Source: a virus
Direction: 5' to 3' (one strand)
Length of the DNA: 40,652 bases
IMG/VR virus record: IMGVR_UViG_3300018411_000044
Location: 1 to 40,652 of that record
The notes under the pieces are model-generated. The model was not told where the DNA came from. It searched no databases and saw only the letters and a list, made by a program, of their open reading frames with translations. The position numbers and the translations under genes were made by a program. Of this stretch, positions 2,404-26,881 are shown in pieces. Position 1 is the first letter of the stretch; every line of letters begins with the position of its first letter.

Positions 2404-3504
2404 GTGACAGAAATAAATGTGAGCAAAATCACAAATATTGTAACCTTCAAAGTTGACAACGCCTCGTATAAACGTGCATTGATGGCTATACGAAAAGTTG
2501 GCGCAGAGTGGGCAAAGGTACAGGGGAAGATCAGTTCGTCTATGTCTGCTGGACGGAGGATTGCAGGAACATCTGGTAGAGGAGGCGGTGGAAGTCGGAG
2601 TCAATTTGTTGGCCCTATGCCATTTTCCCCCGGAACCAATACTAAAATGCAGCAACGGGAAGCAAAGAAGGCAGTTCAAGAACAAGCACGAATTGCAAGA
2701 CAAACAGAAACAGCCACAAAAAAGCATAATGATACTCTTAGAAAATTAAGAGAGATTGATGCTCGCAGGCAAGAGTCAGAAGCAAAACGGCAAGAGCAGT
2801 TTAAGAATAAGATTGCAGGGCAATTCATGGGACCCATGCCTTCTCGTGATATGTTGATAGCTCGCAGAGAAGCAATACGAAATCAACGAAATGAAGCTAA
2901 TAGGTCTGCAAGAGCCCAAGAGACCATTAGTGCGGGAAATATCAGACGCACAAGTATGTTTGGTGGGGCCGGAAATGCAGCAATGGGTTCACAAATAGCA
3001 TCGTTGAATGCTCAATTAAAATCTGGTGCAATTAGTTTACAAGTCTATAGACAAAGTGTAGCAGCACTAGAGCGCGATTTCAAACGAGCTAGTGCAGGCG
3101 GTAGAGATTTCCTTGGAACATTACGAGAAGTCCGTTCAGCGTTTATTGCTTTGACAGCAGCAAACCTTGCATTTACAGGTGGTGCAGCAGTTATGCGAAC
3201 TGGACAGATGTTTGAAGGTATTAATGCTGCAATGTCCATGACATCTGATAGCACATCTGAAACAGCTTCTAAGATTCAATTTATTAGAGACGAAGCTTAT
3301 AGACTGGGCCTTGATTTGAAGACAGCCGCCCAAGGTTTTACTCAGATGAGTGTAGCGGGTAAAGAGGTTATGAACGGCGGACAGATGCAAGAACTGTTCA
3401 CAGGCTTCTCCGAATATGCAACCGCCCTCGGCGTTGACCAATTCAGGTATGAAAAAGGTATTTTAGCTATTGGTCAAATGTTAAATAAACAACAAATCAT
3501 GGCT
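2404..3504 (+). CDS. Tape measure protein, exon 1
   Basis: This exon codes for residues 1-367. It starts at GTG 2404, with GAGGA 4 bases upstream. The N-terminal half is rich in Lys, Arg, Gln and Ala with long helices. From about residue 265 there is the conserved tape measure segment (MTSDSTSETASKIQFIRDEA, then FTGFSEYATALG and FRYEKGILAIGQML). The reading frame hits TAA at 3505, in the middle of the motif that in relatives continues with AEELKGQL. The last seven exon bases, CATGGCT, pair with GGTCATG at 3514-3520 and end in the U-G pair typical of a group I 5' splice site. The spliced protein has 732 residues. It sets tail length and is expelled on injection. Confidence 0.85.
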
Positions 3505-3753
3505 TAATTCTTGGGTCATGTAAAACCCGTCTAAACGGGGGACATCCTAATGGGACAATCCCGTGCTAAATGAAACAATTGTTTCTAAATGCCTAACGAC
3601 TAATCGTGATGAGTGTAGCGATGTAGGGTCAAGCGACTCGAAACGGCGGGCCATAATATTTATGGAAGATATAGTCTAAACATCTGTAGTAATACAGAGC
3701 GGAGATTAATACAATCTCGGGCTAAGTGTAGCGAACTTAGTTGAATATACTTG
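3505..3753 (+). ncRNA. Group I intron 1 of the tape measure gene (no ORF)
   Basis: The sequence closely follows the T4 td intron core. It begins TAATTCTTGGGT and contains GTCTAAACGGGG, GGGACAATCCCGTGCTAAAT, GGGTCAAGCGACTCGAAACG and AGATATAGTCT, ending in G at 3753. P1 is 3498-3504 with 3514-3520. A P10 pairing is visible between TTCTT (3508-3512) and AGGAA (3755-3759) in the next exon. The intron is only 249 bases and has no endonuclease gene, so it is either an immobile relic or mobilised in trans. Self-splicing is inferred from the intact core. Confidence 0.9.
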
Positions 3754-3772
3754 GAGGAATTGAAGGGCCAGT
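3754..3772 (+). CDS. Tape measure protein, 19-nt micro-exon (exon 2)
   Basis: Between the two introns lie 19 bases reading GAG GAA TTG AAG GGC CAG T, which code for EELKGQ plus the first base of a Leu codon. Joined to its neighbours it gives MA-EELKGQ-LAEQMPGA, which restores a segment widely conserved in tape measure proteins. The first bases form P10 with intron 1 and the last six (GCCAGT) form P1 with intron 2, so almost the whole exon is used twice in splicing. No other reading of 3505-4859 as one intron keeps these residues. Confidence 0.85.
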
Positions 3773-4859
3773 AGAAAAATCTGCTTGCTGGCGTTAAACC
3801 AATCTAATTGCGGGAAGTTCTTGTCAGGTGTTGACTACTCTCTCCAGATAGTGATATACTGGATAAACTGAAGGTAATGCTTCAGCGATAGTAAAAACGT
3901 TAACAATAGAGAAAATCCGCAGCGAATATACTTAGAAATATTCTCTCGAAAATCAGTAAGGAGATAAAATGAAACAAACACCTTTTGCAAAAGATTATTA
4001 TTTAGATGAAGAGGGTAATATTTATTCTTGTAAACGAGGATGGAAGAAAAGGAAATTAAATCCCGGAGTAGATCCTCGCGCAGGTGGCTACAGAAGGATG
4101 CAAATAGTTCTTGATAGCGGCGAGAAAGTTTCTATGTTTATCCATAGATTAATGGCTCTAACCTACCTACCCAATCCAGAAAATAAAGAAGAAGTGAACC
4201 ATATTGATGGTAACAAGTTAAACAATAAGCTATCAAACCTTGAATGGGTTACTAAGAAAGAAAATATGCTTCACGCTCATAAATTAAAACTTAGAGATAA
4301 TACAGGAGAAGGAAACCCTCGTAAAATTTTATCAGAAGAAGAGGTTTTAGAAATATACGAAGCCCTATATGACGGTGCAAGAAATTGTGACATGGCTGAC
4401 AAATATAATGTCGATAGAGGTACAATAGCTAGTATAAAATCTAAACAAAACTGGTCTCATATTTTAGAAAATTTACCTGACATAAATATAAAAACAAAAA
4501 GTAAAACTTTATCTGAAAATACAGTAAGATGGGTTTGCTCTGAATTGCAAAAAGGTACAAAAATGACAGAAATTCTAAAGCAGTCTACAAATCAATTACT
4601 AACAATTGATAAAATTTATGATATAAAACGTAGACGTAGTTTTTTATGGGTTTCTAAAGATTACGATTTCTAAGTATTGTGCTCAACGACTACCTGTGAT
4701 GAATGTAGCAGGGTAGCACCAAGCGGTGCGAAATGGTTGGCTGTTTATAAATAAACAGAAGATATAGTCTGAACTTCTATGGAGACATAGAGCAGCAGCT
4801 AATGTTGATAAACATAAGTGATGCGGGAGAGGTCTAGCGAATCTCTCTGAACACAATTG
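3773..4859 (+). ncRNA. Group I intron 2 of the tape measure gene, with HNH gene
   Basis: The intron starts after T3772. P1 is exon GCCAGT (3767-3772) with GCTGGC (3787-3792), ending in a U-G pair. P10 is TCTGCT (3780-3785) with AGCAGA (4861-4866) in exon 3, a perfect 6-bp match. Core elements AATTGCGGGAA (about 3808) and AATCCGCAGC (about 3914) lie before the endonuclease gene. CACCAAGCGGTGCGAAA and AGAAGATATAGTCTGAAC lie after it, and the intron ends TGAACACAATTG. The endonuclease gene sits in a peripheral loop and leaves the ribozyme core intact. Confidence 0.9.
3969..4673 (+). CDS. Intron-encoded HNH homing endonuclease
   Basis: This 234-residue protein lies wholly inside tape measure intron 2, with AAGGAG 8 bases before its ATG. 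The N-terminus (residues about 5-45, YYLDEEGNIYS and GGYRRMQIVL) is NUMOD4-like. The HNH part runs from FIHRLMALTYLPNP to VNHIDGNKLNNKLSNLEWVT, about residues 57-99. The C-terminal half has two helix-turn-helix-like segments (ILSEEEVLEIYEAL, and DKYNVDRGTIASIKSKQNW), which is usual for DNA-binding regions of this family. It should cut intronless alleles of the tape measure gene and promote intron spread. The target site is inferred to be near the exon 2/exon 3 junction. Confidence 0.9.
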   Translation: MKQTPFAKDYYLDEEGNIYSCKRGWKKRKLNPGVDPRAGGYRRMQIVLDSGEKVSMFIHRLMALTYLPNPENKEEVNHIDGNKLNNKLSNLEWVTKKENMLHAHKLKLRDNTGEGNPRKILSEEEVLEIYEALYDGARNCDMADKYNVDRGTIASIKSKQNWSHILENLPDINIKTKSKTLSENTVRWVCSELQKGTKMTEILKQSTNQLLTIDKIYDIKRRRSFLWVSKDYDF

Positions 4860-5938
4860 TAGCAGAACAAATGCCGGGTGCAATGGATGCATTCGTTAAA
4901 GCAGCAAGGGAAGCTTTTAATGATGAAAACATAGGTACTCCTGAACTGTTTAAGTTGATGGAGGGTGGGAAACTCCTTTCAAAAGATATCCTCCCACTTG
5001 TTGGTAAGTATATGTCTGAAGCAGCCAAGAAAGGTGGGGCACTTGAAAAAATGCTCAATAGTAACGGTGTTGCAATGCGCCGCCTGCAACAAACATGGAC
5101 TAGTTTCCAAAATGAAATATTCATGGGCGGTTTCGGAGAAGCATTAACAAGGACATTCAACATCTTAGCTTTCTCTCTTAAAAATAATGAGCAACTAGCC
5201 AAATCGTTGGGTGGTGTTTTTGGTGGATTAGTTGATGGATTTATTTACTTTTATGGCACTATCCATGACTACTCTATCTTGGCTTGGCACGCAATAAATA
5301 CTGAGCTCCTTACTCCACTGAAAGAGGTAATCCCTATTTTAAACGAGGTTGGAGCAAAAGATGCAGCTTGGCTAGCAGGTTGGATTGTAGCAGCAGGAAT
5401 ATTTAAGAATATCGCAGGATTTTTAGGGTCAATTGTTGCAGCATTGATTAAAATACCTAAACTGTTGCCCGCAGCATTGCCGGGAGTAGAGGCCGCCACC
5501 GCAGGTGCAGCAGGAGGAGCTAGTGTTGGTGCAGGAACAGCGGCAGCAGGTGTCGGGGTAGGTGCAACAATGAGTAGGTTGTTAGGCTTCGGACCTCTTG
5601 CGGGTGCAGCAGGGCAGGGTTATTTTTTCCATAATTTTGTACAAGATTATTTTGTCCCTTGGCAGAAGAGTGTAGTTGATTCTATGTTTGGAGGAAATAA
5701 ACTCAGGACAGACTTGAGACCATCGCTACAAGGAAGTGTGTCAGCTCCTACCATGGAAACTTACCCGTACTCCCCTATGATGCGAGGTATGCCGTATATT
5801 CCCGGCAGTGTCAATAAACCAATGGAACCTCAAGAATTGAAAATTAAAGTTATACCTAATGATACTAAATTCTCAGAGGTAATTAGATTGGAAATTGAAG
5901 CCAACAACAATAAAGTATATAATCAACTTACCGATTAA
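4860..5938 (+). CDS. Tape measure protein, exon 3
   Basis: This exon codes for about 359 residues, from the split Leu codon (T3772 plus TA at 4860-4861) through AEQMPGAMDAFVKAAREAF to the stop at 5936. The ATG at 4871 would look like a start in an unspliced annotation, but it has no ribosome site and the protein begins mid-motif. Hydrophobic segments occur at DAAWLAGWIVAAGIFKNIAGFLGSIVAAL and in a Gly/Ala-rich stretch (AALPGVEAATAGAAGGASVG), as expected of the membrane-active part of a tape measure. The C-terminus is soluble and would contact the tail tip hub. Confidence 0.85.
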
Positions 5939-17146: not shown

Positions 17147-18184
17147 TCAGTTATGTAATTGTAGTTCTGAATAATTACATTTGTCAAGCTCTTTATTTAA
17201 AACCCTTCGACATTCTGTATCAAAACATTCATTTGTCCAGTGTAAATGATGTTGGAAGTTTTGTTGTCTAAGAATTTCGTGGAGTTCTTGTTCATAATCA
17301 TATATTTCTTGATGTGTTGCAGTAAAGATTCTAAGTTTCATGATATTTTTAATTCCGGAACATGCCGGTTTTCTTAAATCTTTAATTCGTTCATCAACAT
17401 TAAACGACCTACCAACTTTAATATATTTATCGTCAAAATTTAGAACATACAAATAATCTTGTTCGTATTTTCTTTCTGGGTAATATCCATTTCCGTTGTT
17501 ATTTTCACCTATTTCTTTTTGTTTTTCTTTCCAACACTCCTTACACCTTCTCCTATTATTTACAAAATTATTGTAATTTGTTTCTTGTACCCCATGTTTT
17601 GGGCATTTGTATCTGAATACGGTTTTTATTGCTCCTTTGTATCCAATAATAAAACCAGTAACATCATAGCCCATTTCTTTACAGATGTCAATACATTTTT
17701 GTAATGCTTCTTGTTCTGTTGGTCTGTATTTGTTGGAACACTTAGGACAACCGCTACCACTATTAATAACACTATCAATACTTGCTGTCCACTTATGGCC
17801 ATCTTTTAAACACTCTAGATTTAATTTAGTAGTGTTTCCATGGAATGCCTCGGCAAAACTGTGCACGATAAAACGATCTTTTGTTACCCTACGAGCAAGA
17901 ATCAAATATTGAAAAGGTTCCCATCTTACATTTTTACCACAACCGCAGGGTTTAATACCCTTAATTAAATTATACTTAGTACTAACAAAATAGCCATCAG
18001 GAAATAATTCAGGGTCTTGTGAACAGATTTTGCAAGTCACTTTAAAAAGTATGGCGTTACCCTGCTTTCCTTCAGTACCTATGATTTTATAATTACCATC
18101 TGGTGACTCCCACTCTGTAAACTCTTTTATGACTTTTTCGCTAATATCTTTAATCATTTTCCCTACTGAATTTATCTGAACCAT
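17147..18184 (-). CDS. Free-standing GIY-YIG-type homing endonuclease, copy 1
   Basis: The protein has 345 residues. The N-terminal 220 residues hold repeated Cys-rich modules (CKICSQDPELFPDGYFVS, CGCGKNVRW, CLKDGHKW, GCPKCSN, CKECW) of the DUF723-like kind found in phage endonucleases. The C-terminus is a T5orf172/MUG113-like GIY-YIG domain: DYLYVLNFDDKYIKVGRSF, DERIKDLRK, a likely catalytic Glu in YDYEQELHEILR, then W.NECF. It is not inside an intron but sits between two replication genes. A paralogue lies at 27,516-28,526. It should cut related phage DNA and spread with its flanks. Confidence 0.75.
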   Translation of the reverse strand: MVQINSVGKMIKDISEKVIKEFTEWESPDGNYKIIGTEGKQGNAILFKVTCKICSQDPELFPDGYFVSTKYNLIKGIKPCGCGKNVRWEPFQYLILARRVTKDRFIVHSFAEAFHGNTTKLNLECLKDGHKWTASIDSVINSGSGCPKCSNKYRPTEQEALQKCIDICKEMGYDVTGFIIGYKGAIKTVFRYKCPKHGVQETNYNNFVNNRRRCKECWKEKQKEIGENNNGNGYYPERKYEQDYLYVLNFDDKYIKVGRSFNVDERIKDLRKPACSGIKNIMKLRIFTATHQEIYDYEQELHEILRQQNFQHHLHWTNECFDTECRRVLNKELDKCNYSELQLHN

Positions 18185-19126: not shown

Positions 19127-19396
19127 TTAGTGGGTTCCAGCCCAGCCCTCTTCCGGTGTGCCGACAAGATAATCGCCAGTTATTTTAACAGGTAGATTCA
19201 TCATCTTAGCTGCTTGCTCTATACAACCAACAACCAATTCACCAACTTGAGAATACACTGCATACCAAACACCGTCTATAAGCTTGGGTTTGCCAGCAAC
19301 TTGTTTACCTTCCATTCTATACTCTTTTGCTTCCTCTTCACTATCAAAAGGTACCAGAGTAACAAACTCTTTAGGTACTTGCATCTGGTACTCATC
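19127..19396 (-). CDS. DNA polymerase (T7-like family A), exon 2
   Basis: This exon codes for the last 89 residues, beginning DEYQMQVPKEF. Joined to exon 1, which ends YYH, it completes the motif C triad His-Asp-Glu. Further on, KLIDGVWYAVYSQVGELVVGC and the end (YLVGTPEEGWAGTH, read in parts) match the C-terminus of T7-type polymerases, in which the final His is part of the thumb/fingers end. No start codon or ribosome site precedes it: the codon before GAT is the intron end TTG. It cannot work alone. Confidence 0.85.
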   Translation of the reverse strand, partial: DEYQMQVPKEFVTLVPFDSEEEAKEYRMEGKQVAGKPKLIDGVWYAVYSQVGELVVGCIEQAAKMMNLPVKITGDYLVGTPEEGWAGTH

Positions 19397-20236
19397 CAAA
19401 AGTTCAAGTTAGTCGCAACACCAACCCCGTTCTCTTATGAACTGCTGTACGGTTTCCCGCAAGATCGGATCATATCATACTCTACTCCCTTGAGTAGAAT
19501 CTTCCCATTTCGGTGCATCCTTCGCTTATGTCACCTACTCTACTCGATTCTCACAACAAATGCGGTTGTTGCTAATCTTTCGATGATCTCTGAACTTTGA
19601 GCTACCATGAATAATTTTTAGAGATGTGGGTCCAGTTCTGCCTTCTTTTTATGGCCCTTACGCAACCATAATCAAAACCGAGATCCCTTATCTCGCAAGA
19701 CGTATAGCCAGACTGTAATAACAAACAAATCTCTAAAATATCTGTTTCAGAATTAACACATCGCGCATTGTTCACACCTACAGCCGACCTGTTTTTGAGA
19801 GTGTAAGAATGCCCAATATTGTCGCCATGTGTAACCCATCTAAGATTACTTATTTGATTGTTCTGTCTATCACCATCGATATGGTCTACATCCGATAGGT
19901 TATTAGGATTAGGGATAAAACACTCGGCAATTAACCTGTGTACTGCTTTTGATGTTCTTTTACCATCTATACTAACAGCCACTATTAAGTAATCTTTCCC
20001 GTTGTTGTGAGATGACAACCTCTTGCCATATCTATTAAATACAGACCCATCTTCACAAACCTTATAACCATCACCATATTCTCTACTATTCATAATAACC
20101 CCTTAGCTGCTGATTGACATATATTGATACTCAGTTAATATGATAACATATTTTGTTGAAATATTCAATACTTAGCTTTCCAGCAATTAAAGAAGTTTTC
20201 ATCTATGTGTCGCCACATAGTGCCACAATTTTATTT
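19397..20236 (-). ncRNA. Group I intron in the DNA polymerase gene
   Basis: The intron lies between CAT (His) and GAT GAG (Asp Glu). P1 is exon CCAT with GTGG just downstream, ending in a U-G pair; only four pairs are clear. The minus-strand sequence contains AATTGCTGGAAA and AATCAGCAGC (P and Q type elements) before the endonuclease gene and TGATATGATCCGA (a variant of the usual AGATATAGTC) after it. It ends with G before GATGAG. A perfect hairpin, CTATGTG/CACATAG, lies near the 5' end. It is 840 bases long. Confidence 0.8.
19602..20093 (-). CDS. Intron-encoded HNH endonuclease (DNA polymerase intron)
   Basis: This 163-residue protein lies wholly inside the polymerase intron. A short N-terminal NUMOD4-like part (GYKVCEDGSVFNRYGKRLSS) leads to the HNH region AVHRLIAECFIPNP, VDHIDGDRQNNQISNLRWVTH (read in parts, about residues 55-97). 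A short C-terminal DNA-binding segment follows (CEIRDLGFDYGCVRAIKRRQNW). It resembles the other two intron-encoded enzymes here but is shorter. Its expected target is the intronless HDE-coding region of related polymerase genes. Confidence 0.85.
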   Translation of the reverse strand: MNSREYGDGYKVCEDGSVFNRYGKRLSSHNNGKDYLIVAVSIDGKRTSKAVHRLIAECFIPNPNNLSDVDHIDGDRQNNQISNLRWVTHGDNIGHSYTLKNRSAVGVNNARCVNSETDILEICLLLQSGYTSCEIRDLGFDYGCVRAIKRRQNWTHISKNYSW

Positions 20237-22558
20237 ATGGTAGTAAATAACTCTGCGCACACCTTTATCATACAATCCTGTACGGACAAGTTTTAAATGC
20301 AACAGTATCCCTACAAGATCAAACAGGCAAGCACCGCCAGATTGTTGATAGGCATTCAACAAGCTATGTTTTGAACGTGTCCAAATCTTTCTACCATCCA
20401 TAGCTGGGATATATTTCTTTCCTGTTGCTTCCCAGAAGTTCTCCAACCATTCCTTTCTACCTTTCAATCCGGGGTTATTATCCCAAAAGGCATCAATTAC
20501 TGCTTGAGCTCTGTCTTGACTGATACCTAACATAACAGATATCTTTGTAGCCTGTGCTCCGTACATAATACCGTAGGTAACTCCCTTACCATCATCACGA
20601 GTTACTTCCCTTCCTGCTGCTTCAGAGTACGCCAAGGCGTTTCGTGTATGTGCATCTCCAGATTCCATAATTTCTAGATAGTAACCGTTATCAAAAGCAT
20701 AAGCACCTGCCGCAGCAATCATACCTTCTAGGTTACTACCATCAATACCAATCATAAAACAATTTTCTGGAACTGTCCACAACTCTCTCATTTCCTTACC
20801 GAGCAAAACAGACTTTTTAGGTTTGGGCATATTAGCACAAACACTATGTTTCCTACGGTTTGTGTTGGTTATTCCGTTAGCCCTTGCCGGAAGTTTGCCA
20901 TCCTTTTCAAGTCTTGGATGATTAAGCAGTCCTGTTTCCTTTTCGTCGTCTAATGGTTTCAAAACAGATCTACGGTTTCGTAGACTTAGCCACTTAACAA
21001 TTTGTTTTGCCAACTCACCTTCAACCCTTTCCAAGTTAGGGCACAAAGTTCCCCGTGCATCTTTTAGTTGTGGAGATGTAGGCAATCCTCTTGCTTTGCG
21101 CCTCAACAACCTAAAAACACCATCGGCATCTGAATTCCATTTTGCTTTTGTAATCCCTAATTGCTTAAGGATATACTCAAAGTATTCCGTTTCTGGTAGT
21201 TTTGCAATGTATTCAGAAACTAACTTATCAACTTCAGCTTCCGGTCTTTGCTTTTTAAACTGGTCTTTTGTTACATCCTTCAACCTCCAAATGGTAGGAA
21301 CCCAACCAGCCTCTCTTACCAAATACCTCTTGATATCATCCTGATTTGACAGCTTCATATCTTCCATCAAAAGCTCTGGCATCTTGCCAGTATTTAAATC
21401 CTCCTTTGCCCTTAATAGTAAATCATCAGGCAAAGGTTTTGGTACAGGTTCAGATAGTTTTTTCCTAATAAAATCTGGCATATCTTTTACATCGGTTATA
21501 CCAAACTTATTACAAAATGTCTCGCCAGTTTTACTAAGACTACCATCACCTTTGAATGCCTTTTTTGGTGGTTCAACATAATCAAAGGCTTTCATGTTTA
21601 CAGGATATCCAAGCTTGATTAACCATTTCCAACCAATACTGCTAATCTCTCCTGAACCTTCTGCAAAGGGTTTTGCTGGAAAACTTGGCTGTTTGGATTT
21701 TGCAACAGGTTTTTTAGGAAGTTGTGGCTCTACAAAGGCTTCAATTTCCGCCATCATCAAATCAATTCTTTCTAGCAAAATCTCAGCTTTGTCTTTTCTA
21801 AAAACAACACCCTGAAATTCTTGTTCTGCCATCAAGAAGTCAGCCAACATATTTCTACGAAGTGCATTCTTCCAGTTTATTTGTTTGTTGCCGGTTGGTG
21901 TTGACCCTTCTGAGAGCATGAAATCTTCTTCTCCTCTCATACTTGCCTCTTGCAAAAGACGAGTCCAAACCATTTCATTAATCAACACGTCTTCCCAAAC
22001 ACGATCAACATAAGTCCACAAATCTTGATTGCGCCAGTCATCAATTTGAACTTTCTTATTGGCTACACGATAACCCCAAGCCTCTAATCCGTGACCACCA
22101 ACAGTCTTCATTTTGCCTGTAACAGGGCATTTGACTTTCATAGGACAACCATCAGGTACAGGTCGGTCAGGATAAAGGCATCGACTCATGGACAGCGTAT
22201 CAAACAAAGCAACAGGTTTGTCATTTATTGTACCACGACATTCCTTATCTTTAAACATATCGTACTGAATACCAAACATCTTCTTTAACATTGGAAAATC
22301 ATAAAAGAACGAGTTATGACATCCAAGACCTAAAGGTTCGGTAGTTAACCAAGCTGACAATTCTGAAAAGTCAAGTATCTTAACATTTGCACCCTTAGAC
22401 TCAACGAAATTAACTGCCTGTTGGTATTGTGGATGTGAGAAATCAAGAAATAATTTCCAATTGTCCTTTCCAAACTCTTTAAACAGTCCGCAATGCACTT
22501 TAGTAACTTCTTCTAGGAGTCCGTTAGCCTCCCAGTCAAATATAAACAAACCTTTCAA
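20237..22558 (-). CDS. DNA polymerase (T7-like family A), exon 1
   Basis: The start is TTG 22558, with GGAGGT 4 bases upstream. This exon codes for 774 residues, and the full protein has 863. The 3'-5' exonuclease is present: Exo I FDWEANG (about 8-14), Exo II LGCHNSFFYDFPML, and an Exo III-like WEDVLINEMVW. The polymerase part has motif A GIDGSNLEG with Asp606, and motif B KGVTYGIMYG with Lys658 and Tyr662. Exon 1 ends YYH, the first residue of motif C. The overall likeness is to T7 gp5 (704 residues) with an enlarged middle. It should replicate the phage genome together with the adjacent primase-helicase. A thioredoxin-binding loop cannot be identified. Confidence 0.9.
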
Positions 22559-22618
22559 ATTACCTCCTGCTCATCAAGGTTAAGTATCTTATCACTTCAC
22601 TCATGACGAGTAAAGCAA

Positions 22619-22912
22619 TTAGAATTTAAAATCTACATCTTCCGCCACCGTTGTCGTAGATACGAATGAGGGGTTGCTTGGCATGGTTGAAGGTCTTGCT
22701 GCATACCAATCCTTCAATGTCTGATACTCACCCTCTAGAAACCCTTCAGGAGGCTCTAGGTAGTCTCCAGTATCAACATCATAAAACACTGGGAACTTAC
22801 CTGATCTTCCGTGCTTTCGGTCGTCAAGAACAACAAAATAACTTGTGTTTCGTTCCTTTGGTGTGAGCTCTGGGTCTTTGTTTCGTTGTATGCCCAGCAT
22901 GTAGTATGTATT
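22619..22912 (-). CDS. Primase-helicase, exon 2
   Basis: This exon codes for the last 97 residues, beginning NTYYMLGIQRNKDPEL. The spliced reading SRAMMR-NTYYMLGIQRNKD matches the C-terminal region of DnaB/Twinkle/T7 gp4 helicases, where a basic finger is followed by RNK and then NTSYFVVLDDRKHGRSGKFP (read in parts). The end, AEDVDFKF, is acidic with a terminal Phe, like the tail by which T7 gp4 contacts its polymerase. An ATG at 22,900 falls inside the motif and has no ribosome site, so it is not the true start. Confidence 0.8.
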   Translation of the reverse strand, partial: NTYYMLGIQRNKDPELTPKERNTSYFVVLDDRKHGRSGKFPVFYDVDTGDYLEPPEGFLEGEYQTLKDWYAARPSTMPSNPSFVSTTTVAEDVDFKF

Positions 22913-23880
22913 CCTTTATGTTCAGCTACGGTCGTTAATCGTAACCCGTGGATTATGTTATCTCAACATTAACTCACAGCTCATAGCTTTCCTATAAGAG
23001 CAGACTATATCATCATCCAATATTTCATTGGAGTTTACTGTTTCGGGACACTTGCCCCTACTTCCTTTCGGAATAGTCGTTGAACGTCTTAGCTCGCTTA
23101 TTTCTTTTGTTATCAAAAGATTTCCATATGTATTTGGAAGATAGGTTTACCCAATCTCTCCTAGATCTTATATTTAGTAGTTGGCAACGTGTAACCCTGA
23201 AATCACACATATTTAAAATTTTGTTTGTTGATTTACCTTCTTGCAACAACTCACAAATAAACATCACTTGCTCATCTGTTAGTTTAGAGTTCGGATGTTT
23301 ACCATGCCTCGGTAGTAATCCAACTCTTACAGAATGTTCTATGTTTTCTTTGTTTGTTACCCATTCAAGATTGTCAACAGTATTGTTATGTTTGTTGCCG
23401 TCTTTGTGGTTCACTTCTGGTTTGTTATCTGTGTTCGCAATAAAGGCTTCCGCAACCAGTCTATGAATATATGCAGGAACTCTTTTATTGTTTATACGGA
23501 TATTAACTACCAGATATCCAGTCTTCGATTCCGACTGTTTTAGATATTTGTTTGTGAACAGACTAAATACATTACCTTTTTCATCCACTAAGTACATAGG
23601 ATCGCACGTTTCTTTTAATACCATAAAACTACCTCAAATATTATTGTGTATAGTATATTATAGCATTAAACGCATCATAAGTCAAGTTAATTTCGCTGCT
23701 GATTGCCCAATCCTTCTGATTTTCAAACCTTGTTGGTTGCAAAATGGCAACTGAGTTATTTTATAACCCACCGGAATTCTCCGGCAATTTTCACGATTAT
23801 CTTTACAGATTGCGTTGTGGTTCAGAAAGCTCTAAGGGTGTTCCAGCAATTAAGTAAATTTTAAATGCGCCATAATATTA
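22913..23880 (-). ncRNA. Group I intron in the primase-helicase gene
   Basis: The intron lies after CGT (Arg) at 23,883-23,881. P1 is exon ATGCGT with GCGCAT, ending in a U-G pair. A short P10, TATT with AATA at the start of exon 2, supports the 3' site. Core elements AATTGCTGG, CAATCAGCAGC, GATATAGTCTGC and the near-td 3' end (CGATTAACGACC, CTGAACATAAAGG) are visible on the minus strand. Phase requires the intron to end at the second G of AAAGG. It is 968 bases long. Confidence 0.85.
23058..23624 (-). CDS. Intron-encoded HNH endonuclease (helicase intron)
   Basis: The protein has 188 residues. An N-terminal NUMOD4-like part (MYLVDEKGNVFSLFTNKYLK) precedes the HNH region YIHRLVAEAFIANT, VNHKDGNKHNNTVDNLEWVT (about residues 57-99). 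A DNA-binding C-terminus follows (KLTDEQVMFICELLQEGKS, RSRRDWVNL). It lies in a loop of the helicase intron. The likeness to the tape measure intron enzyme in the HNH core suggests common descent. Confidence 0.9.
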   Translation of the reverse strand: MVLKETCDPMYLVDEKGNVFSLFTNKYLKQSESKTGYLVVNIRINNKRVPAYIHRLVAEAFIANTDNKPEVNHKDGNKHNNTVDNLEWVTNKENIEHSVRVGLLPRHGKHPNSKLTDEQVMFICELLQEGKSTNKILNMCDFRVTRCQLLNIRSRRDWVNLSSKYIWKSFDNKRNKRAKTFNDYSERK

Positions 23881-25383
23881 ACGCATCATTGCTCGGCTAC
23901 CTGCAAACTGAGCAGATTGGACTTGTCCTCCAAACTCGTGCGGAGCACCAGACTCCGGTTTATTCAAATGACAAAAGCAATAGTATGTGAAACCTAAATC
24001 TTTTGCCATCTTAGAGATTTCATCGCTAAATCGCTCAAGCTCTGTATTGGCCTCCGATGCTGACAACCCCTGTACCAAGCGAGTAATCGGATCGATTATA
24101 ATATCCTCAGCACCCTCTACCAAAACGGCATGACGGATTGCACCTTTAACCTCGTCCCAAACAGCACGGCCATAGTTAGAATAATAGATGATGTTATCAC
24201 CAACTGCATCAGTTGCAGCCATCAATTCTTCTTGTTTGTAGTATCCATAATCACCTTCACTTCGTGGATTACCCCAGACATCTACATAACCACCACCTTC
24301 AACAGGGATCAGTACCTTTTCAGCATTAGTAAATTCTTTGTGGTTAATCTTACCGGCTACTTTTTTACAGGTTACATCATTTTCTTCTTCAAATTTGAAA
24401 ACACCAACCTTTCTTTTCTCTTCAACAATAATATGTTCAATAAGTTGGTTTACGAATTCACTTTTCCCCATCTTCACACCAGCACCGACAAAATAACCCT
24501 CTCCTTTTCTTCGTCCTAGTGTCATTTTTGTCATCGTGGCCCAAGGCCATGCCTTTCCTAATTTAGGGATTTCATGGGCTTTTTCTCTGAACTGATCATA
24601 AGTCCTGAAGCCTTCTGGGATGTATTCAACAGGTTTCATAGCTGCCCAGTACAACTGCTCTGACATACCTTGTTTGATCATGTCACAAGGATCAAAATCA
24701 TCAGGCAAATCCGCAACTTTAATCTTAGGCATCAAAGAATAGACAGCAGCAACAGCATCTTTACCTTTCATTATCTTCTTTGCTTTTTCTTCTTCTGTTG
24801 CCTTGTCAGCATCAAATGCAAGAATTATTTCATCAAACTTACCAATAAATTTTTGGTTTGATTTCTGTCCTAGATTCTGAACTGCATTAGCAGTACCATT
24901 ACTGATTGATAGGACTGTTGGGTTTGCTTTTGGATAACGTTCTTTGATTGTCTGCCAAAGAACTGCACAATCATATTCACCTTCTGTGATCCACAGCTTC
25001 TTCCCTCCTGTCTTGTTACCACTTGTTTGACCAAATAGGTCACAAGCTACACTCTGGAATCCAACAGTAGAGAAGTGCATTTTTTGTTGTTTTGGAATTG
25101 TCAGGTCACGTTTCTTATACCCAACAATCTTTCCGTCCAATGTATAAGGGAAATAATGTGCCTCTTGTGTGAGTCCATCTTTAGCAGATAGTCGTGTACG
25201 GATACCAAAATGCTCTGCTGTCTCTTTAGAAATACCACGTTCAGGGATTGCAAGACAAGGGAAATTTTCAATAAACTCAAGTGATTCTTCTTTGTTGTAA
25301 CTCACTCCACCTCCATCATAATGTGTTTGTTTTGATTTAGGATTTTTATACCCTTTTTTGTAACCTCCAAAAGATCCCTCCAT
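23881..25383 (-). CDS. Primase-helicase (Twinkle/T7 gp4-like), exon 1
   Basis: This exon codes for 501 residues, and the full protein has 598. There is no N-terminal Cys4 zinc module. The TOPRIM part has EGEYD (134-138) and AFDADK with Asp191 and Asp193. The RecA-type helicase has Walker A GAGVKMGKS (300-308), Walker B IIIDPIT (about 425) and a motif near CHLNKP. The end, GSRAMMR, is cut by the intron. The protein should unwind the fork. Primer synthesis is uncertain without the zinc domain. It sits between the Pif1/Dda-like helicase and the polymerase in the leftward operon. Confidence 0.9.
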
Positions 25384-25386
25384 AAC

Positions 25387-25608
25387 TTAACCTTTCTTTG
25401 GGAGTAGTTTTGTTTCGTCCTTCAGAATATTCTGTAATTCTCCAATCAACTTTTCCAAATCAATAGATACTGCTGAGACTGTATGCGAGTCATTTATGAC
25501 AGTGATATTTGTAAGGATTTTACCCTTATGAATAAATGGTTGGAACTCCAAATATTCATCAAGACCTGTATGGTGTTGGTTAATTTTGTATGATTTGCTT
25601 ACGGACAT
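25387..25608 (-). CDS. Small protein, unknown
   Basis: This 73-residue protein lies 3 bases upstream of the primase-helicase start and is surely co-expressed with it. AAGGAG lies upstream. It begins MSVSKSYKINQHHTGLDEYL and has a C-terminal amphipathic helix (LEKLIGELQNIL) with a basic end (LLPKKG). I do not recognise it. Position suggests a replication accessory role. Confidence 0.6.
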   Translation of the reverse strand: MSVSKSYKINQHHTGLDEYLEFQPFIHKGKILTNITVINDSHTVSAVSIDLEKLIGELQNILKDETKLLPKKG

Positions 25609-25627
25609 AATAATCTCCTTAATTGAT

Positions 25628-26881
25628 TTACATATACTTCTTCACATGGTCAACAACATATTGATCCACAACAATATCCTTAACTGTTAATCTCCTAATA
25701 ATCTTCAAACTATTCAAATCACGACACCTAGAAACAGCAACATACAGCATACTGCTACCAAACAATGGATAGTGGCCTAATTGCAAATCTACTTCACCAA
25801 GAGTCATCCCTTGTGAACGATGTATACTGATTGCTGCGCCAAGTCTCAAGGGGATTTGAGTATAAGATCCAACAATCTTTTCTCTTACTTTACCAGATAC
25901 ATCAACAAACAATTCGTAATTGTAGCTTGTTTTTGGTTCAAAATCAATAATCATTCCATTGTCCAACTCTACAGTCACAGAGTTTCGATTGATACGAAGT
26001 ACAGTACCACTTGACCCGTTTACATATCTTTCTTCTTCATCATTGATTGTTGTTAGTACACGACAACCTACTTTCAACTCTACAATCTTAGGTGATGGTT
26101 CCTCTTTGAAGTCTCCCTTGACAACAGCTTTAAATATTTTAGACTTGCCAGAAATGTTTGTCAAATGATACTGATTATGTTCATCAACTGTCTTGTTTGT
26201 TGGAGCTAGAACAACAGGATTGTTCAGCGCCTTATCTGTATTATAGCAAACATCATTAAGATATTCAACAATCAATTGCTTATTTTCACCAAGTCTCAGA
26301 AAATCCAAGATTTTTTGTTGTTCTGAATCTGATTGCCTAAAATTTTGTGTCAATACAACAGTTTTAAAATCGCCATCTTTGTATGATTGAGAATCAAAAG
26401 CATAAGGTGAGTTATAGTGTGGTTGCATAATCTTTCTGTCGCTGTCAGTAACAACTGGAGCAAGCTGAAGATAATCACCAGTCATAATAACTTGCAGGCC
26501 ACCAAATGGTTTATCTTTATCTCGATACTTCCTAAGTGTCCAGTCCAACTCACTGATGCGATCCACGCGACAAGCTCCAATTTCGTCAATCACTAACATC
26601 TGAATTTCAGGAGATCTTAGAATTGCAGCTCGCTCTTTCTTTAAGTTGCGTTTAAGTGTAACACCTTCAATAAACGGCTCTAAAGCCAACCCAAATGTCC
26701 TGTGAAGCGTTTGACCGCCAACGTTAAGGGCACTACTGCCAGTGGGGCCAACCTTCAGCATACAGCCACTGAAGAAGTTTGAGAGACTGTTAATAAGTGT
26801 ACTCTTGCCTCGTCCGGCACCACCTAAGATTTCTACATTGTGTCCAGACAGAATTGCATCTAATGCATCATCAGTTGTCAA
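25628..26881 (-). CDS. Pif1/Dda-like SF1 helicase
   Basis: The start is placed at TTG 26881 because GGAG lies 7 bases upstream and the start overlaps the stop of the previous gene (TTGA). The upstream TTG at 26887 is too close to GGAG. The product has 417 residues. Motifs are Walker A LGGAGRGKST (near residues 18-27), Walker B LVIDEIG, Gln and Arg motifs around GDYLQLAPV and LTQNFRQ, and the C-terminal SIHRSQGMTLGEVDLQLG and YVAVSRCRD of the RecD/Pif1/Dda group. In T4, Dda works in replication initiation and recombination. A similar role is inferred. Confidence 0.85.
   Translation of the reverse strand: MTTDDALDAILSGHNVEILGGAGRGKSTLINSLSNFFSGCMLKVGPTGSSALNVGGQTLHRTFGLALEPFIEGVTLKRNLKKERAAILRSPEIQMLVIDEIGACRVDRISELDWTLRKYRDKDKPFGGLQVIMTGDYLQLAPVVTDSDRKIMQPHYNSPYAFDSQSYKDGDFKTVVLTQNFRQSDSEQQKILDFLRLGENKQLIVEYLNDVCYNTDKALNNPVVLAPTNKTVDEHNQYHLTNISGKSKIFKAVVKGDFKEEPSPKIVELKVGCRVLTTINDEEERYVNGSSGTVLRINRNSVTVELDNGMIIDFEPKTSYNYELFVDVSGKVREKIVGSYTQIPLRLGAAISIHRSQGMTLGEVDLQLGHYPLFGSSMLYVAVSRCRDLNSLKIIRRLTVKDIVVDQYVVDHVKKYM

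Follow-up and report, generated by a model that had tools for sequence, protein, structure and literature searches.

A group I intron between the motif C histidine and aspartate codons of a phage family A DNA polymerase gene

Introduction

How a phage could obtain a complete replication enzyme from a DNA polymerase gene which is interrupted within its catalytic motif C, and from where the interrupting element came, are the questions raised by this locus. The record analysed is an IMG/VR virus contig (IMGVR_UViG_3300018411_000044), a fragment of 40,652 bases, and this whole stretch is referred to here as the window. The reading that we consider almost certain is that the insert is a mobile IA-type group I intron which encodes an HNH enzyme of the I-HmuI kind, is lodged at the site numbered 881 in E. 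coli polymerase and is excised from the transcript to restore the polymerase mRNA.

The split polymerase gene

Exon 1 (22558-20237, minus strand, 774 amino acids) was assigned from its matches to PF00476, phrog_17 and phrog_8888 and from its alignment with E. coli Pol I and T7 polymerases. It comprises the exonuclease domain (motif FDWEANG), the motif A aspartate, Asp606, and the sequence up to the motif C histidine, His774, whose CAT codon occupies 20239-20237; its 3' end, ...TTTACTACCAT, is translated as VRRVIYYH. Exon 2 (19396-19127, minus strand, 89 amino acids) begins with GATGAGTACCAG, read as DEYQ (GAT GAG for the first two residues), and ends in GTH and a stop codon; it matches the C-terminus of phrog_8888 and shares 33-40% identity with the exon 2 of Vequintavirinae polymerases. 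The family phrog_8888 is matched in order, positions 1-185 by exon 1 and 250-295 by exon 2, and joining the exons without the intron gives a single open frame of 863 amino acids (...YYH-DEYQ...).

The split cannot be ascribed to chance, since at least 15 other phage genomes are divided at the identical codon boundary and both junctions, 5' and 3', are the same in them; in intronless relatives the frame continues uninterrupted as YYHDEYQ. A sequence-only reading of this DNA had proposed that an intron parts the motif C histidine from the Asp-Glu pair, and the junction between CAT and GAT GAG proved exact to the base. The insert had also been correctly placed, but the bounds then given, 19394-20239, included the flanking CAT and GAT codons, the intron itself being the 840 nt of the minus strand from 20236 to 19397. 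An intein was considered as the nature of the insert and was ruled out by an in-frame stop one codon past the histidine.

Group I identity of the insert

With the general group I model of Rfam (RF00028), no match was obtained on the window at the gathering cut-off, and a permissive search gave 16.5 bits, below the gathering score, a weak result for which the inserted ORF and the low GC content may account. Introns sharing the same junctions in other phages pass the gathering score, namely those of JEP1 (73.7 bits), KP12 (69.8 bits), V5 (64.7 bits) and CR9 (56.7 bits). Fifteen introns with TACCAT before the insert and a terminal G followed by GA(T/C)GA were extracted, their endonuclease ORFs were removed and 14 of them were aligned; ten helices (P1, P2, P3, P4, P7, P7.2, P8, P9, P9.1 and P9.2), amounting to 53 pairs, were then placed by hand. 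Across the 14 introns, 91% of the cells of the proposed pairs are formed and both partners have changed in 32 pairs, against 35-47% of cells and 6-12 pairs with double changes in a control where the partners were slid by 1-3 columns. By helix, the paired cells amount to 96% in P3, 90% in P4, 95% in P7 and 87% in P8, with double changes in each.

In the window, the 5' strand of P7, GAUCAU (19583-19588, minus strand), pairs with its 3' strand, AUGAUC (19468-19473, minus strand), and both covary among the relatives as GAUCAU/AUGAUC, GACUAU/AUAGUC and GACCAU/AUGGUC; an exact-pattern scan of IMG/VR for part of the P7 region of the window returned no match. P1 is formed by the internal guide GUGG (20223-20226, minus strand) and the exon bases CCAU (20240-20237), with a U.G pair at the 5' splice site, and is invariant, all its cells being paired (100%) in the 14 introns. 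At the other end, the terminal base of the intron is the G at 19397, and the 15 extracted introns all end in G before GA(T/C)GA. The IA2 subgroup is distinguished by the extra hairpins P7.1 and P7.2, located between P7 and P3 and joined by GUA (PMC3428280). The P7.2 hairpin, GGUG...CACC, is paired in 14 of the 14 introns, with double changes, GUA is conserved before it, and the place of P7.1 is taken, in the window as in its closest relatives, by a CAACAA/UUGUUG hairpin; by these features the intron is described here as IA2-like.

Profiles built with the window left out recognised the 5' core with E=9e-19 and the 3' core with E=1.6e-37, the latter match ending at 19397, and a covariance model from eight relatives, also excluding the window, scored the two halves of the core at 84 and 129 bits. 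By fold energy, the 3' core does not stand out (z -1.15). Covariation, leave-one-out profiles and covariance model thus agree with the group I assignment made beforehand, and the identification is regarded as secure. From this anatomy we infer that the window intron is spliced. In the folded transcript, the CCAU at the exon end would pair with GUGG to form P1, an external G would attack after the U, and the freed exon 1 would in turn attack after the terminal G, restoring the polymerase mRNA.

The exons appear as separate ORFs in annotations, and the same arrangement could be taken for a gene in pieces, in which the insert no longer splices and exons 1 and 2 yield separate polypeptides which then associate. 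Such splits occur in phages; the ribonucleotide reductase of phage Aeh1 is reportedly split into separate chains that assemble. In phage CB7, moreover, an insert with an intron-borne HNH gene in CB7_245 is not spliced (PMC7344957). Against this, the ribozyme core is intact and covarying, exon 2 starts directly with Asp-Glu, its listed start codon being a TTG that overlaps the last bases of the intron, and the intron at the same site in CB7_50 is spliced in infected cells, as determined by RT-PCR (PMC7344957). Two assembling chains are therefore very improbable, and a spliced intron is the reading followed below.

The intron endonuclease

The intron carries an ORF for an HNH homing-type endonuclease (19602-20093, minus strand, 163 amino acids, with AAGGGG upstream), located in the P6 region, between P4 and P7. 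The presence of a homing-type enzyme, already suggested from the bare sequence, is borne out by matches to PF13392 (HNH_3, E=2e-11), to phrog_59 and to the sole relative of solved structure found in the PDB, I-HmuI of phage SPO1 (1u3e, E=3e-9). The protein is 58-59% identical to the ORFs in the introns of KLEP7 and phiA009, and when it was used as a query against IMG/VR only three loci, all distant, were retrieved. The protein would probably cut or nick intronless alleles near TACCAT/GATGA, and repair would then copy the intron in.

At this same site, a homologous ORF is found in the introns of KLEP7, phiA009, SPA01, CR9, K54rec4, A73, Av05 and rV5_ev146; those of TS9 and 4L372D carry a different, shorter ORF of 130 amino acids with at most a short HNH stretch in common, and those of V5, JEP1 and KP12 carry no endonuclease ORF. 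The ORF being homologous, different or absent at one site, intron and endonuclease turn over separately.

Precedents for the insertion site

The introns of phage family A polymerases have been located, in E. coli numbering, at 674 (SPO1, SP82, Bastille and Pf-WMP3), at 676 (phiL7) and at 881 (PhiI and W31) (PMC3428280), the last site being given there on the authority of Bonocora and Shub 2004. The Pf-WMP3 intron lies between Pro363 and Asn364 (PMC3428280) and falls after E. coli residue 674 in our alignment, in agreement with the published number; site 881 therefore means after His881, which is the position of the window intron. The insertion site is thus already known, both from site 881 of PhiI and W31 and from the published splicing of the same-site homologue in CB7.

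PhiI and W31, which are T7-like, resemble the window in position and description: the intron follows His881 of a family A polymerase and holds an HNH ORF (I-TslI) in P6a (PMC3428280), but the host phage group is different. In 60 evenly sampled of 1,363 T7-like records, no break was found at the residue equivalent to His881. The introns of SPO1, SP82, Bastille and Pf-WMP3 likewise encode HNH enzymes (I-HmuI, I-HmuII, I-BasI and I-PfoP3I) within family A polymerase genes; site 674, however, lies in the fingers, whereas that of the window lies in motif C. Among closer cases, the Pectobacterium phage CB7 (Vequintavirinae) and phages phiTE, CR9, A73 and K54rec4 have a junction identical to that of the window, TACCAT before and G/GATGA after the insert, and a homologous core, 61-68% identical for CR9, A73 and K54rec4; in CB7_50 the intron falls between the residues equivalent to 774 and 775. 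In some of these Vequintavirinae hosts the polymerase gene is interrupted by a further intron, at residue 663/664, which the window lacks. The junction is also shared by KLEP7 (Pseudaeromonas) and by phiA009, TS9 and 4L372D (Aeromonas), and the cores closest to that of the window are those of KLEP7 (78-79%) and phiA009 (75-76%), in both halves, although the polymerases of these four phages are only 22-29% identical to the one considered here.

Group I introns thus recur at the motif C codons of family A polymerases, well outside the pair of T7-like phages from which the site was first reported: the identical base is occupied in polymerases of the Vequintavirinae type, the Aeromonas Plateaulakevirus type and the KLEP7/SPA01 type, the endonuclease being a different one in some cases and lacking in others.

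Occurrence and turnover of the split

Conserved codons had been named in advance as the expected target of homing, and the site is indeed a preferred one, filled in many phages. Out of 483 phage records matching the polymerase end, an even sample of 60 contained 11 matches that start exactly at the aspartate, and among the relatives in IMG/VR the polymerase is split at this site in 2 of 12 and unsplit in the other 10. At least 11 changes of intron state occur on a tree of 33 polymerase segments, and gain and loss are therefore frequent. The target codes for catalytic residues kept by family A polymerases, by which the element would persist and could move between very different polymerases.

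It has been proposed that introns of phage polymerases act as on-switches, and for some genes mature transcripts were observed only later in infection (PMC11878797); splicing could in this manner serve to delay polymerase activity in the window phage. Such a timing role is judged unlikely: the 10 unsplit alleles among the 12 IMG/VR relatives have lost the intron or never had it, and the introns of V5, JEP1 and KP12 persist without endonuclease, no common regulatory need being visible.

Several further observations concern the polymerase genes compared. In the intronless Proteus phage Mydo (L025), the 60 bases around the site are those of the intron-bearing Klebsiella phages KP12 and K54rec4 (L024 and L032), including CAT, and a precise loss of the intron is possible; the intronless Klebsiella phage DP has CAC at the site. 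Several Vequintavirinae (loci L007, L023, L024, L032 and L075) have an intron at the other polymerase site, that of window-equivalent residues 663/664. In Escherichia phage JEP1 (L027, 474-3872) there is an apparent intein near window-equivalent residue 636, in addition to the endonuclease-less intron between His and Asp-Glu.

Catalytic residues and the unspliced product

When the window polymerase was aligned with E. coli Pol I and with the polymerases of T7 and related phages, its His774 fell opposite E. coli His881, and its Asp775-Glu776 opposite Asp882-Glu883; the metal-binding aspartate of motif A, aligned with E. coli D705, is residue 606, well within exon 1. In family A polymerases, two metals are held by the aspartates of motifs A and C. 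It had been stated that without splicing both metal-binding acids would be missing, and this does not hold: exon 2 contributes only the aspartate and glutamate of motif C, and the unspliced product therefore loses one metal-binding aspartate and the neighbouring glutamate, not both ligands. The unspliced frame reads CAT AAA TAA, that is His-Lys-stop, and the product ends in YYHK with its N-terminal exonuclease motif retained. Translation of such a message, stopping one codon past the histidine, would thus yield only an exonuclease-bearing polymerase devoid of the motif C acids. In Pf-WMP3, exon 1 alone reportedly has exonuclease activity and performs no synthesis (PMC3428280).

No second family A polymerase was found in the 40,652-base contig, which is a fragment, and each of seven whole related genomes (4L372D, 2L372X, KLEP7, phiA009, TS9, Av05 and SPA01) has one family A polymerase locus. 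For this reason, replication of the genome is likely to depend on splicing of the intron.

Discordant trees of intron and polymerase

The backbone of the contig, on both sides of the polymerase, is 82-90% identical to Aeromonas phages of the genus Plateaulakevirus. The polymerase itself is about 60% identical to those of Vequintavirinae and about 22% to those of the Aeromonas relatives, and the polymerase tree groups it with Vequintavirinae with a support of 100/100. The intron tree disagrees, placing the window intron with that of KLEP7 (99/95) within the Aeromonas set (100/99), and a tree constrained to unite it with those of Vequintavirinae is worse by 31 log-likelihood units (AU p=0.0004); for the endonuclease tree alone, a grouping with the Vequintavirinae ORFs is not rejected (AU p=0.23). 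With 75-79% identity to phiA009 and KLEP7, each half of the intron belongs to the Aeromonas type, while exon 2 belongs to the Vequintavirinae type. On the simplest reading of these trees, the intron would have entered a foreign polymerase by homing, either once that polymerase had reached the phage or together with it, and this intron seems to have passed between polymerases whose relationship is very distant. Near the junction, the alleles have little sequence in common beyond TACCAT/GATGA.

The region from about 19133 to 25628 holds a polymerase and a primase/helicase of Vequintavirinae type inside the backbone of Plateaulakevirus type, and the two genes are apparently a foreign replication module that was swapped in as a unit. 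This mosaic structure, in a record which is a 40.6-kb fragment, might also be attributed to a chimeric assembly, or the intron to decay in a dead polymerase gene, so that the split would mean nothing to the phage. Both exons are, however, open and conserved, polymerase and helicase were replaced together, each with its own intron, and no shared sequence was seen that could account for a false join; moreover, 51 bases running from the last part of exon 2 into the following gene are identical to those of Aeromonas phage 4L372D. Decay or misassembly is accordingly hardly credible, and a presumably functional intron in an acquired polymerase is the reading retained.

The codon of the catalytic histidine

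The catalytic histidine is encoded by CAT in every intron-bearing allele, including all the polymerase loci recovered in a scan that permitted CAC, because it is the third-base U that forms the U.G pair of the splice site. Four IMG/VR loci with the 5' splice pattern and CAC were rejected as not being polymerases: L061 is open in another frame, and L068, L069 and L073 share its flanks. Among polymerases of the Vequintavirinae type and their near kin, CAT is found in 16 of the 16 intron-bearing rows and CAC in 12 of the 17 intronless ones (Fisher p=2e-5, a value that takes the rows as they stand, these being related and a few of them identical). A test on sister pairs, comparing codon with intron state, is underpowered and gave 2-3 pairs to 0 in the expected direction.

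A tentative explanation, which we put forward as possible rather than probable, is that the intron lineage could cross polymerases only some 22-29% identical since the target residues cannot change, and that recipients would escape by a silent change from CAT to CAC, which breaks the U.G pair. Instead of CAC giving protection, the conversion tract of the intron may itself carry CAT into the recipient gene. If protection is real, a synonymous third base in an active-site codon would amount to immunity against an RNA parasite. The disagreement of the trees, together with the CAT/CAC pattern, makes it possible to test, in a simple case, the reach of such an element and the way in which a host gene might evade it with its protein unaltered.

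Other introns and genes on the contig

A second group I intron (22913-23880, minus strand, 968 nt), with an HNH ORF at 23058-23624, splits the primase/helicase gene between MMR and NTYYMLG; it was found by the polymerase-intron model at 43.5 bits, and an intronless relative (L043) reads MMRNTYYMVG. Two more group I cores lie on the plus strand, at 3482-3761 (49.2 bits) and 4572-4867 (33.2 bits), both between the ORFs 2404-3507 and 4871-5938, apparent pieces of a tape measure gene, and an HNH-like ORF (3969-4673) precedes the second of them. The tape measure gene of phage ICP1 contains three introns (PMC10448857). Genes for T5orf172 endonucleases are abundant in Plateaulakevirus (PMC10448857), and on the minus strand of the window, near a single-strand-binding-like gene, the ORF 17147-18184 presents CapR, DUF4379 and T5orf172 domains.
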